Positions 16,368-30,718 of a stretch of DNA of 37,764 nt are shown in pieces; the stretch's first letter is position 1, and the number at the start of each line of letters is the position of its first letter. The translations under genes were made by a program, and so were the position numbers. The stretch comes from a virus: IMG/VR virus record IMGVR_UViG_3300032288_004724, positions 1 to 37,764 of that record. The stretch is one strand, 5' to 3'. Below the pieces are notes generated by a model that was not told the origin of the DNA, did no database searches, and saw nothing but the letters and a program-made list of their open reading frames with translations.

Positions 16368-17699
16368 ATGGTTTTGAATTTGGATAATTTTGAAAGTGTC
16401 TTCTGTTATAAGATGCTTACAGATAAAAGCTTTTTTGCTAGGATTGATCCGTTTTTTGAAGTAGATTATTTGCACGACAAAGATAGAAAGTGTATTATAC
16501 AAATTCAAAAGAATATTGTTACGGAAAATAAGATATTTCCAAATCTCACAGAAATTAAAAATTACATTACAAATAAAGAACAATCACAATCGTTTGTAAA
16601 AGTTCTTACAGAAATTAAAAATATTAATCCTGATTTGAATGAAACAGAATTGTATAGTTGTACTGAAAGATTTTTAAAAGAACGTGGGATTTATAATGCA
16701 ATGTTAAGTGTGGTTGATGATATTCAATCTGGCAATATTGATTCGTCAAAGATTTTAGATTCTTTTGAGAAGAGATGTAAAATTAATCTAGACAATAAAG
16801 GTGGATTCAACCTTGCTAAAGATTTAAATGTGTTAGTCGATTCCTTAAAAGCTAAGGAATCATTCATTAAATCAAAATATAATTGGTTGGATAATATTAT
16901 GGATGGAGGTTTTAGAGCAGAAGGAAAGGCTTTATATCTTGTTGTGGGTCAAGTAAATATTGGTAAGAGTATTGTTCTTGGTAATCTTGCTAAGAATATT
17001 GTTGAGAGTGGAAAGAATGTGCTTTTGATTTCATTAGAAATGTCTGAAATGATGTATGCTTCTAGGATTACATCTAACATGACAAAGATTCCTATTTATA
17101 AATTAAAGGATGAAGTTGATACGATTGAAGAAGCAATGGAGATTTATAGGAATCGTAGCAATGTTGGAGAGTTAATGATTAAGGAATTTCCTCCTAGTAA
17201 AATTACACCAAATCAATTAGAAGCTTATATTAATAGTGTAATTAGTAGTGGCTTTAAAGTTGATGCGGTAGTAATTGACTATTTGAATCTTTTACATGGA
17301 GAAACTGGTAGTAATTCTTATGAGAGATTGAAATATGTTACGGAACAAATAAGAGCATTATCATACATATTTGCTTGTCCATTTATTACTGCTACACAAC
17401 TTAATAGAGGTGGATTTGATGAGGATGATGGTCCAGAATTATCTAATCTATCTGAATCTATTAATATTGCTGCTACATGTGATTTTATTTTTGGAGTATA
17501 TAAAAAGTCTTCAGAGAAATCTTTACCAGTTATTCGTTTTAAGATGTTAAAAAATAGGTGGGGAGCAAATTATGGAGAATATGCTTTCAAAGTTGATACG
17601 ACTACTTTAGCATTGATTGAGGATGATGAATTCAATAATACAATGTGTACTATTGAAGATAGTGAAGAAGAAGAATCGCTTGAAGAATTATCTGAGTAG
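16368..17699 (+). CDS. 41: DnaB-like replicative helicase (gp41-like)
   Basis: 443 residues (T4 gp41: 475). Hexameric 5'-3' helicase that drives the replication fork and works with the gp61 primase. The N-terminal half (to about 150) is the small helical domain. The RecA core has P-loop GQVNIGKSIVLGN (about 194-206; N replaces the more usual residue before the I-G-K-S), SLEMSE (about 222), Walker B VVIDYLNLL (about 301-309) and the sensor TATQLNRGG (about 343). The C-terminus is a short acidic tail ending ESLEELSE. This tail, with its stop, is repeated at 19251-19298 downstream of the inserted DUF1501 gene. Confidence 0.94.
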   Translation: MVLNLDNFESVFCYKMLTDKSFFARIDPFFEVDYLHDKDRKCIIQIQKNIVTENKIFPNLTEIKNYITNKEQSQSFVKVLTEIKNINPDLNETELYSCTERFLKERGIYNAMLSVVDDIQSGNIDSSKILDSFEKRCKINLDNKGGFNLAKDLNVLVDSLKAKESFIKSKYNWLDNIMDGGFRAEGKALYLVVGQVNIGKSIVLGNLAKNIVESGKNVLLISLEMSEMMYASRITSNMTKIPIYKLKDEVDTIEEAMEIYRNRSNVGELMIKEFPPSKITPNQLEAYINSVISSGFKVDAVVIDYLNLLHGETGSNSYERLKYVTEQIRALSYIFACPFITATQLNRGGFDEDDGPELSNLSESINIAATCDFIFGVYKKSSEKSLPVIRFKMLKNRWGANYGEYAFKVDTTTLALIEDDEFNNTMCTIEDSEEEESLEELSE

Positions 17700-17710
17700 A
17701 TTTTTTATAT
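17660..17710 (+). repeat. Direct repeat copy 1 (3' end of gene 41)
   Basis: Positions 17668-17710 match 19256-19298 at 42 of 43 bases; similarity extends about 7-8 bases further upstream if one GAA codon is counted as missing in copy 2. Covers the last codons and stop of gene 41 and the following T-run. Offset between copies is 1588 nt. The non-coding 17711-17866 that follows is very AT-rich and holds only scattered late-like octamers. Confidence 0.9.
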
Positions 17711-17866
17711 GTATTTATAAAAAAATAAAACAAATATTTTAGATAAATAAATTATATATAAAATATTTTAATGGCTATATTTTTATTTATAATATTATGC
17801 AATATAAGTTATAGTCTTTAAAGTTGAATAATATACACTACCAAGGTCCACTAATTAAAATACTAT

Positions 17867-19216
17867 ATGATTACTATACCTAGTTCAAATTCAGGAAGAT
17901 TTTGTGATGGAATGCTAAGAAGAGACTTCCTTCGTATAGGTAGTCTTGCTTTGGGTGGTGTAAATTTATCTCAACTATATGCGGCTGATACAAATAATAT
18001 TTTAGCATCTACTGGAGCTAAGTCAGTAATTATGATTTACTTACCTGGAGGTCCAAGTCATCAGGATATGTTTGATTTGAAAATGGATGCTCCTTCAGAA
18101 GTTAGAGGAGAATTTAAACCTATTAGTACAAATGTAGATGGTATACAAATTTGTGAGCATTTACCTTTATTAGCTAAGAGAGCAGACAGATATACTATTA
18201 TTCGCTCTATGGCTGATTGTGAAGAAAGACACGATGCTTTTCAGTGTCTAACAGGTAAACCTTCCAAGAATCAACCTTCAGGTGGTTGGCCATCTTTTGG
18301 TTCAGCAATTTCTTACTTTCAAGGACAAAGAGACGAATCAGTGCCTTCCTTTGTTGGCCTATCCCCTAAGATGGGACATGCTCCTTGGTCAAGAAGTGGA
18401 GAGCCTGGTTTTTTAGGTGTTAAGCATTCTCCCTTCCAACCAAACAAAGGAGGAGCGGGAGAAGATATGACTTTAAATGGTCTAACGCTAGAGCGTTTAT
18501 CAGACAGAAAACATCTACTGTCTACTATTGATTCATTTAAGAGAGAAGCGGATTCTTCTGGCATAATGTCTGGATTAGATACCTTCAATAAACAAGCTTT
18601 TGGTGTGTTAACATCATCGAAATTGTTGGATGCTTTGGATGTAACAAAAGAAAAGGATTATATTTTAGAGCGTTATGGTAAAGGAGATTCTAAGAATAGA
18701 GATGATGGTGGACCTAAGTTAATGACCCATTTCCTTGCAGCTAGAAGACTAGTAGAAGCAGGGGCAAGAGTAGTAACTGTTGCATTTAGTCGTTGGGATC
18801 ATCATGGAGATAATTTTGGAGCACTAAGACAAGATCTTCCATTATTTGATAAAGGGTTAACTGCCCTACTTGATGATTTAAGAGATCGAGGTTTAGAGAA
18901 AGATGTAGCAGTAGTAGTTTGGGGAGAATTTGGAAGAACACCTATTATTAATAAAGGTGGAGGTCGAGACCACTGGCCAAGAGTATCATGTGCTCTGATA
19001 GCTGGTGGAAATTTTAGGCATGGTCAAATTATTGGTGCTACTGATAGATTAGGAGGAGAACCAGTAGAAAGACCTGTACAATTTGCAGAAGTATTCTCTA
19101 CCTTATATAATCATATGGGAATAGATACAATGACTAGTACAGTCAACGATTTTTCTGGAAGACCTCAATACTTAGTTGATCCAGTAGTAATGCCTATTAA
19201 AGAATTAATAAACTAA
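17867..19216 (+). CDS. DUF1501 (sulfatase-like) protein with Tat-type signal
   Basis: 449 residues, the usual full length of DUF1501 proteins. The N-terminus holds FCDGMLRRDFLRIGSLALGG (about 12-31), a twin-arginine motif followed by a hydrophobic stretch and an Ala-rich cleavage-like region (LYAADTN), so it should be exported folded. The mature part carries family hallmarks: VIMIYLPGGPSHQDMFD (about 55-71), the ERHDAFQCLTG block (about 123-133), FSRWDHHGDNF (about 307-317), GEFGRTP (about 352-358) and GRDHW (about 366-370). These lie in the alkaline-phosphatase/sulfatase-like superfamily; the family's substrate is unknown. No frameshift is seen. The gene is richer in G+C than its neighbours in sampled stretches (29 of 60 at 18361-18420, versus 18-20 of 60 in gene 41). 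It lies between direct repeats of the gene 41 end, so it is an inserted cassette. No clear promoter was found. Confidence 0.93.
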   Translation: MITIPSSNSGRFCDGMLRRDFLRIGSLALGGVNLSQLYAADTNNILASTGAKSVIMIYLPGGPSHQDMFDLKMDAPSEVRGEFKPISTNVDGIQICEHLPLLAKRADRYTIIRSMADCEERHDAFQCLTGKPSKNQPSGGWPSFGSAISYFQGQRDESVPSFVGLSPKMGHAPWSRSGEPGFLGVKHSPFQPNKGGAGEDMTLNGLTLERLSDRKHLLSTIDSFKREADSSGIMSGLDTFNKQAFGVLTSSKLLDALDVTKEKDYILERYGKGDSKNRDDGGPKLMTHFLAARRLVEAGARVVTVAFSRWDHHGDNFGALRQDLPLFDKGLTALLDDLRDRGLEKDVAVVVWGEFGRTPIINKGGGRDHWPRVSCALIAGGNFRHGQIIGATDRLGGEPVERPVQFAEVFSTLYNHMGIDTMTSTVNDFSGRPQYLVDPVVMPIKELIN

Positions 19217-19250
19217 TTCGTTGCATTAAGTGTTATTTTAATATACTATC

Positions 19251-19298
19251 TAGTAAAGAAGAATCGCTTGAAGAATTATCGGAGTAGATTTTTTATAT
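19251..19298 (+). repeat. Direct repeat copy 2 (remnant gene 41 3' end)
   Basis: Read in frame it still encodes S-K-E-E-S-L-E-E-L-S-E-stop, against S-E-E-E-E-S-L-E-E-L-S-E-stop in copy 1. The Leu-Ser codon differs synonymously (TCT versus TCG). This looks like the original gene 41 terminus left behind after insertion. Confidence 0.88.
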
Positions 19299-19318: not shown

Positions 19319-19732
19319 ATGATACATCAAGTCATTGATAAAAAGTTAATAGAACACAAGTTTTTATGCTTTTGTAGTTTTTTATGCATAATTAATGGTA
19401 AGCGATTAAACATTGCAAATATATTTTTGGAACTAATTAAAAATGAAAATTATAAAAATATACTAAAGGATATTTTAGCAATAGAAACTGATTATGAATT
19501 ATTAAAGTTTATTGTGGATTACGATCCAACTATTGCTAAAAGTAAATACATTTCAAAATTTTTAAACTCACCTAAAGGAACAATCATTAAGAAAAATGCT
19601 CACGAATTTCGAAAAATTTCTATACAACGAACACCTGTTATTGTCACGAAAACTAAAAGGGAAACCGTATCGGCTAAGAGAGGACTTCGAACAACTGGAA
19701 AACCAAAAGGTAGAAGACCTAAAAAGGCTTAG
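19319..19732 (+). CDS. Hypothetical protein with basic, AT-hook-like C-terminal tail
   Basis: 137 residues. The first 90 are mixed hydrophobic and helical (IANIFLELIKNENYKNILKD). The last 45 residues are strongly basic and end in RTTGKPKGRRPKKA, which resembles an AT-hook (the R-G-R-P type core), so DNA binding is plausible. Its last 137 nt overlap the next gene in another frame. It lies between gene 41 and gene 32, the region where T4-like phages keep helicase-loading and late-transcription accessory genes, but I do not see gp59 or gp33 signatures. Function unknown. Confidence 0.6.
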   Translation: MIHQVIDKKLIEHKFLCFCSFLCIINGKRLNIANIFLELIKNENYKNILKDILAIETDYELLKFIVDYDPTIAKSKYISKFLNSPKGTIIKKNAHEFRKISIQRTPVIVTKTKRETVSAKRGLRTTGKPKGRRPKKA

Positions 19733-26833: not shown

Positions 26834-28402
26834 GCTGGTAATGCAAGATTCCATGATAAACTACATAGCAAAAATCATCATACCCTACCAACATCGGGAT
26901 ATTATGATAGTGCTTCTGATCCTATTGCTTCTCCAGCATCACCATTTCAAGGAGATTTTCATATTAATGGGACATTAAGTGCTAGTAATGGAATTATTAT
27001 TCCATCTTCAGTGATTGTAGGAAATCTTACTGCAACAAATGCTATATTTGATGGAGTAGTTAAGATGGATTATTTATCAGGAGAATTTGATGAGGCTATA
27101 TTGAGTGATAATCCAAGTACTGTTGGAAACGGTTCTAGAACATTAACATTAGATTTCGAAAATGGTATTTATACTACTAGCGTTTTAAATATAAATTCAA
27201 ATGTATATTGTACATCTGGAATAGATGCGAAATCAATTGATGTTGATAATGGTATAGTTCAAAATAATTTTAAAGTTCAAAATGATTTATTAGTTGTTGG
27301 AAATTTAACTGCCAATCAATTGAAATTAAACTCAAATCTTATTGGAAATGGGTATTTAAATCTTAATAATTCTTCATCGAATACAACAATTAGTGCTAAT
27401 CAAGCATCTGGAACTAATCCATTAATCACAATGCATTATGGTAATGTTCAAAAATTTAAAGTGAATTATGATGGAAGTGTTGAATCATCTGGAGATGTTA
27501 TTGGAAATAATATTACATTATTACAAACTACATCTTCATTATGGAACGATTCAAGAAGTTCATTGCAATCAAATTCTGCTATTTGGAATAGAGCATATTC
27601 AACAATAAACAATTTATCATCAAATTGGAATACGACATACAATACAGTATCTTCAATTTCATCAAATTGGTCAGAAGTTTATACATCATATCAAACAAAT
27701 TCGGGAAGTTGGGTAAATGCTAGAACTACATTGGCTTCAAATTCTGGAAAATGGGAATCATCATATAATACATTAACAGCAACTTCAGCAAATTGGAATT
27801 TAGCATATGCATGGTATAATAATGATTATACTACAATAAACAATGTTGTTACATCTGTAAATGCTTATCAAAATAATTGGAATGCATCATATACAACACT
27901 AACTTCTACATCTGGAAATTGGTCTGGAGTTTACACATCATATCAAACTAATTCTGGAAATTGGGTGGAAGCTAGAACTACTTTGTCAGCAAATTCTGCA
28001 AATTGGAATGAAACTAGAACAACAGTTCAAACAACATCTTCTGATTGGTTAAGTGGTAATAATACATTAACACATTCTTCATCTGTAATAAAAACTCAGA
28101 TATTATCTACTGCACAATCTTTCTATGTGCCTGTAACATCAGTTGTATTATCTGCTGCTAATGTAAATCTATCTGCTAATAGCCCAACATACATTAGTGT
28201 TACAAATGCTACAGGAGCAGAACAATTTAATCTTCCAACTGGTTTAAATTCAGTTCATAATGGATTAACTTTTGTTATTAAAAATAATACTATAACAAAT
28301 AATCATTTCCATGTTTATTATAATGGAAGCGCATTACAACAAATTGACCAGTATCAAAGATATTCATTTATTTGGAATTCAACAACATGGTTAGTATTCT
28401 AA
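26831..28402 (+). CDS. Phage fibre-like protein with 14-residue Trp repeats
   Basis: 523 residues. The N-terminus (ARFHDKLHSKNHHTLPTSGY and DPIASPASPFQGDF) resembles virion-attachment modules I recall from large phages. The middle (about 60-225) contains repetitive NGTLSAS-like and beta-rich segments. Residues about 238-406 hold twelve 14-residue intervals, each anchored by Trp (for example W-n-x-x-Y-x-T). The C-terminal domain (about 425-523: LSAANVNLSANSPTYISVTN through FIWNSTTWLVF) looks like a tip or chaperone-type domain, unassigned. I infer a trimeric fibre or decoration protein. Late-type promoter 5 nt before the ATG. Confidence 0.8.
   Translation: MAGNARFHDKLHSKNHHTLPTSGYYDSASDPIASPASPFQGDFHINGTLSASNGIIIPSSVIVGNLTATNAIFDGVVKMDYLSGEFDEAILSDNPSTVGNGSRTLTLDFENGIYTTSVLNINSNVYCTSGIDAKSIDVDNGIVQNNFKVQNDLLVVGNLTANQLKLNSNLIGNGYLNLNNSSSNTTISANQASGTNPLITMHYGNVQKFKVNYDGSVESSGDVIGNNITLLQTTSSLWNDSRSSLQSNSAIWNRAYSTINNLSSNWNTTYNTVSSISSNWSEVYTSYQTNSGSWVNARTTLASNSGKWESSYNTLTATSANWNLAYAWYNNDYTTINNVVTSVNAYQNNWNASYTTLTSTSGNWSGVYTSYQTNSGNWVEARTTLSANSANWNETRTTVQTTSSDWLSGNNTLTHSSSVIKTQILSTAQSFYVPVTSVVLSAANVNLSANSPTYISVTNATGAEQFNLPTGLNSVHNGLTFVIKNNTITNNHFHVYYNGSALQQIDQYQRYSFIWNSTTWLVF
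27542..28048 (+). repeat. Tandem 42-nt (14-codon) repeats
   Basis: Tryptophan codons at strict 42-nt steps from 27542 to 28046, with one position (in the YNNDYTTI section) replaced. The repeat units share a Tyr/Arg and Thr pattern between Trp residues. Confidence 0.9.
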
Positions 28403-30097: not shown

Positions 30098-30718
30098 TTA
30101 ACGATTTAAAATATTTTTACCTTTTCCTGAAACACCATACTCAGTGGTATGAGCCTTCATGCTCTTACCATCATCATATGACATATTCATCTTTTGAAGA
30201 CCGTGTGGCTTAGTTACATCAGTCTTTGCTGTACCGTGTGCGTTTGTTGCATTGGTTGCAGCACCTTGAACACGTTGATTTCTTCCTTGAAGAGCTTTTA
30301 CATACTTATCAACTGGAAGCTCTTCCATGGTTTCTACTGCTGGAGATTCACCAAATGAACCACCTTCTTCTTCACCTTCTCCACCTTCTTCGCCTTCGCC
30401 GCCTTCTTCACCTTCTCCACCCTCTTCTTCACCTTCTCCTTCTTCTCCACCTTCATCTTCACCAACTACACCCTTGAGAACTTCCATGAGTTGTCTAGCC
30501 ATATCTTTTGAAATGGTTAGAGTTACAGAATCTCCTTCATCTTCTCCACCCTCATCTCCTCCACCAATACCGAGTTCAGCAGCATCGTCATCCATTTGTG
30601 AATCACCACCTGCGTCTCCACCCATATCAGGAGCACCACCACCAAATGAAGGTTCCATACCAGACTGTTCGTTGATAACTTGATTGAATAACTTATCGAA
30701 TAATGAATTTTTAGCCAT
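30098..30718 (-). CDS. Gly/Glu-rich virion-type protein, possible prohead core or scaffold
   Basis: 206 residues. Starts MAKNSLFDKLFNQVINEQSG, where I-N-E may be a prohead protease site. Residues about 22-55 and 75-120 are Gly/Glu/Asp-rich low complexity with EEGGEGEEGGEGEEGG-type tandem units; acidic, disordered. A hydrophobic-charged helix (TLTISKDMARQLMEVLKGVV, about 67-86) separates the two. The C-terminus is basic and Asn/His-rich (ATNATNAHGTAKTDVTKPHG). TATAAATA lies 5 nt upstream. Acidic low-complexity with a leader-like peptide suits T4-type core/scaffold proteins, but this is inference only. Confidence 0.65.
   Translation of the reverse strand: MAKNSLFDKLFNQVINEQSGMEPSFGGGAPDMGGDAGGDSQMDDDAAELGIGGGDEGGEDEGDSVTLTISKDMARQLMEVLKGVVGEDEGGEEGEGEEEGGEGEEGGEGEEGGEGEEEGGSFGESPAVETMEELPVDKYVKALQGRNQRVQGAATNATNAHGTAKTDVTKPHGLQKMNMSYDDGKSMKAHTTEYGVSGKGKNILNR

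Follow-up and report, generated by a model that had tools for sequence, protein, structure and literature searches.

T4-like phages carry morons, or auxiliary metabolic genes, in plastic regions that lie amid their core genes, and these are the closest described counterparts of the locus analyzed here: a DUF1501 gene behind gene 41 in a metagenomic IMG/VR virus record of 37.8 kb (37,764 nucleotides, hereafter the window). As in those cases, one cargo gene of apparent host-lineage origin stands between conserved replication genes, and close relatives lack it at this site, as is expected of a moron. In contrast to T4-like morons, two 43-bp copies of the end of the neighbouring core gene flank the cargo. 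PeSL cassettes, as far as the account cited in PMC4503421 describes them, likewise place a repeated sequence beside exchangeable genes in a T4-like genome; there, an early promoter with a conserved stem-loop marks the exchange points, whereas the repeat of the window is a gene terminus. A PeSL-type repeat was rejected because no promoter-like site was found in the repeat and the stem predicted around the upstream copy (z -2.4) is not kept around the downstream copy (z -0.7). For the T4-like cyanophage S-PM2, it has been proposed that genes were captured through illegitimate recombination while concatemers formed (PMC4503421). The likeness lies in this proposed capture of foreign DNA; the S-PM2 case concerns a large ORFan region, whereas the window has a single gene with a visible junction duplication. 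On the cellular side, DUF1501 genes of Verrucomicrobia occur beside PSCyt/PSD1 (DUF1549/DUF1553) genes. In freshwater Verrucomicrobia, the functions of PSCyt/PSD genes and their conserved neighbours are described as entirely obscure, with carbohydrate metabolism suggested (PMC5615132). The window protein shares with the cellular proteins 76% amino acid identity (the best cellular value, over 448 residues of a Chthoniobacter homologue), a Tat-type N-terminus and the invariant residues, but its gene is a single copy, the phage is low in GC and the 37.8-kb window contains no PSD1 partner. Events of this type are commonplace in T4-like phages; what is unusual is the visible junction and the cargo family.

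The T4-like gene content of the window includes a phage DNA helicase, an SbcD/SbcC-type nuclease (putatively gp47/gp46 by T4 analogy), a DNA polymerase, a UvsX-like recombinase, the gene 41 helicase and gp32, as well as a large terminase, a tail sheath and a tail tube. All features of the locus lie on the + strand. Gene 41 (16368-17699) encodes an intact DnaB-type replicative helicase of 443 aa. Its DnaB_C match (PF03796, E = 3.1e-26) and the position of gp32 after it bear out the gene name used in the original prediction, and 2412 phage records have tblastn matches to the protein that cover 80% or more of its length. The end of this gene is present twice, as direct repeats at 17668-17710 (copy 1) and 19256-19298 (copy 2), which are identical at 42 of 43 bases and are separated by 1588 nt from start to start. 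The extension score of the pair was 40, whereas no repeat exceeded 19 in 300 second-order Markov simulations of a 7-kb region, which rules out a chance origin. Copy 1 is the resident gene 41 end with 11 nt past the stop, and its left side joins resident DNA; copy 2 is a detached remnant of that end, which runs into resident downstream DNA on the right. Read in frame, copy 1 ends in S-E-E-E-E-S-L-E-E-L-S-E-stop and copy 2 in S-K-E-E-S-L-E-E-L-S-E-stop; as originally reported, copy 2 has one codon fewer (GAA), a Glu-to-Lys change (GAA to AAA) and a synonymous Ser change (TCT to TCG). The insert of about 1.5 kb between the repeats contains a single intact, full-length DUF1501 ORF (17867-19216, 449 aa) with AT-rich non-coding flanks of 156 nt on the left (17711-17866, GC 0.147) and 39 nt on the right (19217-19255, GC 0.231). 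The composition claimed for this segment thus held up, with a PF07394 match at E = 2.4e-84 (284 bits, cut-off 27) that covers profile positions 1-389 of 390. The left flank has weak promoter-like sites in a number equal to the chance expectation, and no terminator-like site was found after the DUF1501 gene. Elsewhere in the window, an imperfect direct repeat of 132 nt (78%) was noted at 27623-28006 within a 523-aa ORF, and a low-complexity repeat array with 9-12 nt spacing and locally raised GC lies at 30351-30562 within an ORF of the - strand (30098-30718).

An exact search with a 24-mer of the left flank matched only L002, a separate IMG/VR record that is 100% identical to the window over 5188 bp and spans both junctions. 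This identity bears on the reading that a cellular or foreign contig was joined into the phage during assembly. Such an error is conceivable in a metagenomic record with short direct repeats, which can mislead assemblers, but the exact matches between the two copies extend over just 25 nt (the longest) and 17 nt, so that an assembly with k of at least 27 would be unable to confuse them. Since the DUF1501 gene also has a phage-like GC3 and a relative in another phage lineage, an assembly artefact is extremely improbable.

Comparison with relatives bears on the direction of change. Records L004, L005 and L006 (G003, G004 and G005) are syntenic with the window in the parts covered, at about 75-81% nucleotide identity in long blocks. 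Their alignment to the window runs up to 17706-17708 and starts again from 19256, with 38-41 bp common to both copies, and all three have a clean empty site in which one gene 41 end is directly followed by ORF B (19319-19732 in the window, 137 aa, 83-84% identical in these relatives). DUF1501 was found in none of the 42 records of the wider helicase clade, many of which are fragments and which include L004-L006, and it is absent behind gene 41 in every clade record that spans this gap. As the gene is missing from all 42, the ancestor is taken to have lacked it, and the gain is placed in the lineage of the window. The feature is real: a gene inserted recently and flanked by the duplicated end of gene 41. 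The converse history, in which an ancestral insert was precisely lost from L004-L006 by recombination between the repeats, would yield the same clean empty sites, as direct repeats allow exact excision. Besides the absence of DUF1501 across the clade, repeats that predate the separation from L004 would be expected to show as much divergence as gene 41 itself (dS about 1.0), and the observed difference of 1/43 makes this history quite improbable. Among loci L007-L079 (e.g. L008:6318-7241), a gene of about 300 aa often occupies the space that separates gene 41 from ORF B, so the content behind gene 41 is variable. This gene is DHH-phosphoesterase-like by eye, has no Pfam, NCBIfam or PHROG match and is absent from the window clade. 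At L046:4992-8011, the helicase gene is apparently broken by an intein-like insertion. The other large length difference between the window and G005 corresponds to a gene with Ig-like repeats and contains no cassette.

Direct repeats on both sides of an insert are also what the target-site duplication of a transposon-like or homing element would leave. A duplication of 43 bp is unusually long for known transposases. In agreement with the original prediction, the insert shows no transposase, no integrase and no terminal inverted repeats, and an endonuclease ORF was not seen either; a transposable or homing element was rejected on this ground. The closest viral relative of the DUF1501 gene beyond L002, found in L003 (G002) with 93% amino acid and 82% nucleotide identity, points the same way. 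Its similarity to the window ends at the ORF, the edges differ, the neighbours in the sequence at hand are unrelated and flanking repeats are missing, which shows that the repeats of the window are not part of a mobile unit. A transposon-like or homing element is highly improbable. Nor is a flanking duplication a general trait of such genes: among the viral DUF1501 genes scanned, strong flanking repeats were found only in the window and L002, where they exceed those of 238 control ORFs (maximum 26).

The two copies were originally explained as diverged alleles of the gene 41 end, which does not agree with the relatives. The copies differ from each other at 1/43 bases, whereas L004 differs from copy 1 at 5/42 and from copy 2 at 4/42, and L005 likewise at 4-5 of about 42. 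L004 and L005 group with neither copy, having the run of four GAA codons seen in copy 1 together with the TCG serine codon of copy 2; this mixed pattern implies that each copy holds its own derived change. A short duplication at insertion followed by decay fits these two informative sites better than two old alleles do. The same comparison weakens the proposal that homologous recombination brought the segment in from a close relative in which the cargo already accompanied gene 41, with the resident terminus left over. Two similar, non-identical termini around the cargo would be expected from such an exchange, T4-like phages recombine actively and the window has a UvsX-like gene. But no known relative is as near to either copy as the copies are to one another, no IMG/VR phage other than the identical L002 combines gene 41 with the cargo, and such an exchange would merely shift the origin of the junction to an unseen donor, so that this route is unlikely, though not negligible. 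What stands of the proposed import is the insertion itself and the probable derivation of the cargo from another phage, given its GC3 and its 93% identical relative.

The preferred reading, to which a probability of about 0.6 is assigned, is that the DUF1501 gene is a recently acquired auxiliary gene (moron) of a T4-like phage, a hydrolase gene of Verrucomicrobiota origin that arrived by the joining of DNA fragments. Genome copies with free ends would be present during replication or recombination, and a DUF1501-bearing fragment from another phage may have been attached to one such end just past gene 41. The other side of the fragment would then have been joined to a second genome copy whose end lay 43 bp farther upstream, and the overlap would thereby have been duplicated. 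Such an event would leave gene 41 intact and restore the normal upstream sequence of the downstream ORF, and copy 2, lying outside gene 41 since then, would have begun to decay. Two genome ends overlapping by 43 bp would be the simplest joining route; the duplication is the sole diagnostic trace of this step, and IMG/VR searches found no donor fragment. Under this reading, the junction is young and well preserved, and it documents how a T4-like phage can acquire a gene amid essential replication genes with both neighbours undamaged.

Regarding the origin of the cargo, phylogenetic analysis indicated that the window and G002 copies group together (support 100) inside a Chthoniobacteraceae-type clade of the Verrucomicrobiota (support 99), in which some names of metagenome-assembled genomes, such as "Akkermansia", follow the deposited records and may be incorrect. 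Although the total GC of the DUF1501 gene (0.376) is above the phage mean, its GC3 of 0.18 lies within the range of the other tabulated window genes (0.11-0.26), compared with 0.77 in the Chthoniobacter homologue; this phage-like GC3 rules out a recent direct capture from a high-GC bacterium. Comparison of the window and L003 genes gave a dN of 0.050 and a saturated dS of 1.47 (dN/dS 0.034), which indicates that its function has long been maintained in genomes of low GC. Before it inserted, the cargo was probably already carried by phages, and it appears to be of Verrucomicrobiota (Chthoniobacteraceae-type) origin, which fits a later phage-to-phage transfer of a gene long resident in the phage gene pool. 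A low-GC bacterium outside the collection compared is a possible donor as well. The suggestion of a Verrucomicrobia-type host comes only from the cargo phylogeny, and GC content (30% in the phage and 63% around the nearest cellular homologue, L088) lends it no support.

The N-terminus of the DUF1501 protein, LRRDFLRIGSLALGG, shows a twin-arginine (Tat-type) pattern, in which R18 and R19 are invariant across an alignment of 42 sequences. The other invariant positions are D70, S114, H122, D311, H313, E354-F-G-R357, G366-R367 and H369; D368 is kept in 41 of the 42 sequences, and every invariant DUF1501 column is present in the window protein. The structure model (mean pLDDT 78.7, pTM 0.79) is poor at the N-terminus and in much of residues 195-238. 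Foldseek searches with this model retrieved sulfatases, LtaS and YejM with E-values down to 1.2e-7 and a probability of 1.00, at TM-scores of only 0.28-0.45 among the matches listed; a fold of the alkaline-phosphatase/sulfatase superfamily is accordingly predicted, with modest TM-scores. Inspection of the translation revealed no formylglycine sulfatase signature (C/S-x-P-S-R), which rules out a classical sulfatase. D311, H313, E354-F-G-R357, R367 and H369 are candidate metal or active-site residues. As a best guess, the product is most likely a periplasmic metal-dependent hydrolase of the alkaline-phosphatase superfamily that would be exported by the Tat pathway of the host. Judging from its family, fold and conserved residues, such an enzyme might adjust the envelope or the nutrient use of a Verrucomicrobia-type host. 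No match to the DUF1501 protein was found in NCBIfam or, for anti-phage defence, in PADLOC. The surroundings of the cellular homologue contain other DUF1501 genes and a PSCyt2-PSD1 gene, and five PVC genomes (four of Verrucomicrobia, one of Planctomycetes) have 44-79 DUF1501 matches each. The strong purifying selection on the phage copies may offer a handle on DUF1501 function and on Verrucomicrobia-infecting phages.

Unlike the cargo of T4-like morons, this family has no match in PHROGs (searched with three representatives) and is practically absent from INPHARED, in whose 50,697 phage records the B-type protein had one weak partial match, and the window protein, the A-type protein and PSCyt-PSD1 had none. 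In BFVD, one protein from an uncultured Caudovirales phage is automatically annotated as a "DUF1501 domain-containing protein". A weak CDD match to DUF1501 is listed for a 61-aa Pseudomonas phage ORF in PMC5418858. The parts of the literature searched contain no description of phage DUF1501 as an auxiliary gene, nor of the pattern seen here, in which phages repeatedly adopt a family present in dozens of copies in Verrucomicrobia. An IMG/VR search with a diverse alignment as the query detected DUF1501 in 40 records (G001, G002 and G045-G082) of up to 320 kb, with one to three genes each and mostly 2-3. PSD1 is also present in 10 of these 40, including one complete PSCyt1-PSCyt2-PSD1 protein. 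Six DUF1501 records have a terminase match above or near the curated cut-off, and G047, a PSD1 carrier and sister of G002, has tail and baseplate genes, indicating that at least these records are phages; among the others there may be fragments that were misclassified. At least seven changes between cell and virus labels are required by the tree, which was built by a quick method and has some long branches. With about even odds, DUF1501 and PSCyt-PSD1, both large protein families of Verrucomicrobia and Planctomycetes, may form a recurrent auxiliary set of uncultured, partly jumbo-size phages, which would have been taken from hosts several times and passed between unrelated phages; if so, periplasmic DUF1501/PSCyt-PSD1 systems would matter during infection. 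The viral DUF1501 genes fall into several subfamilies with separate cellular neighbours. PSCyt-PSD1 (DUF1549/DUF1553) genes were also observed in phage contigs at L087:255-3236 (- strand) and L196:2894-5038 and in G047, G049 and G078; the long ones are open frames of 962-998 aa, some of which lie beside ThyX or DUF1501 genes.
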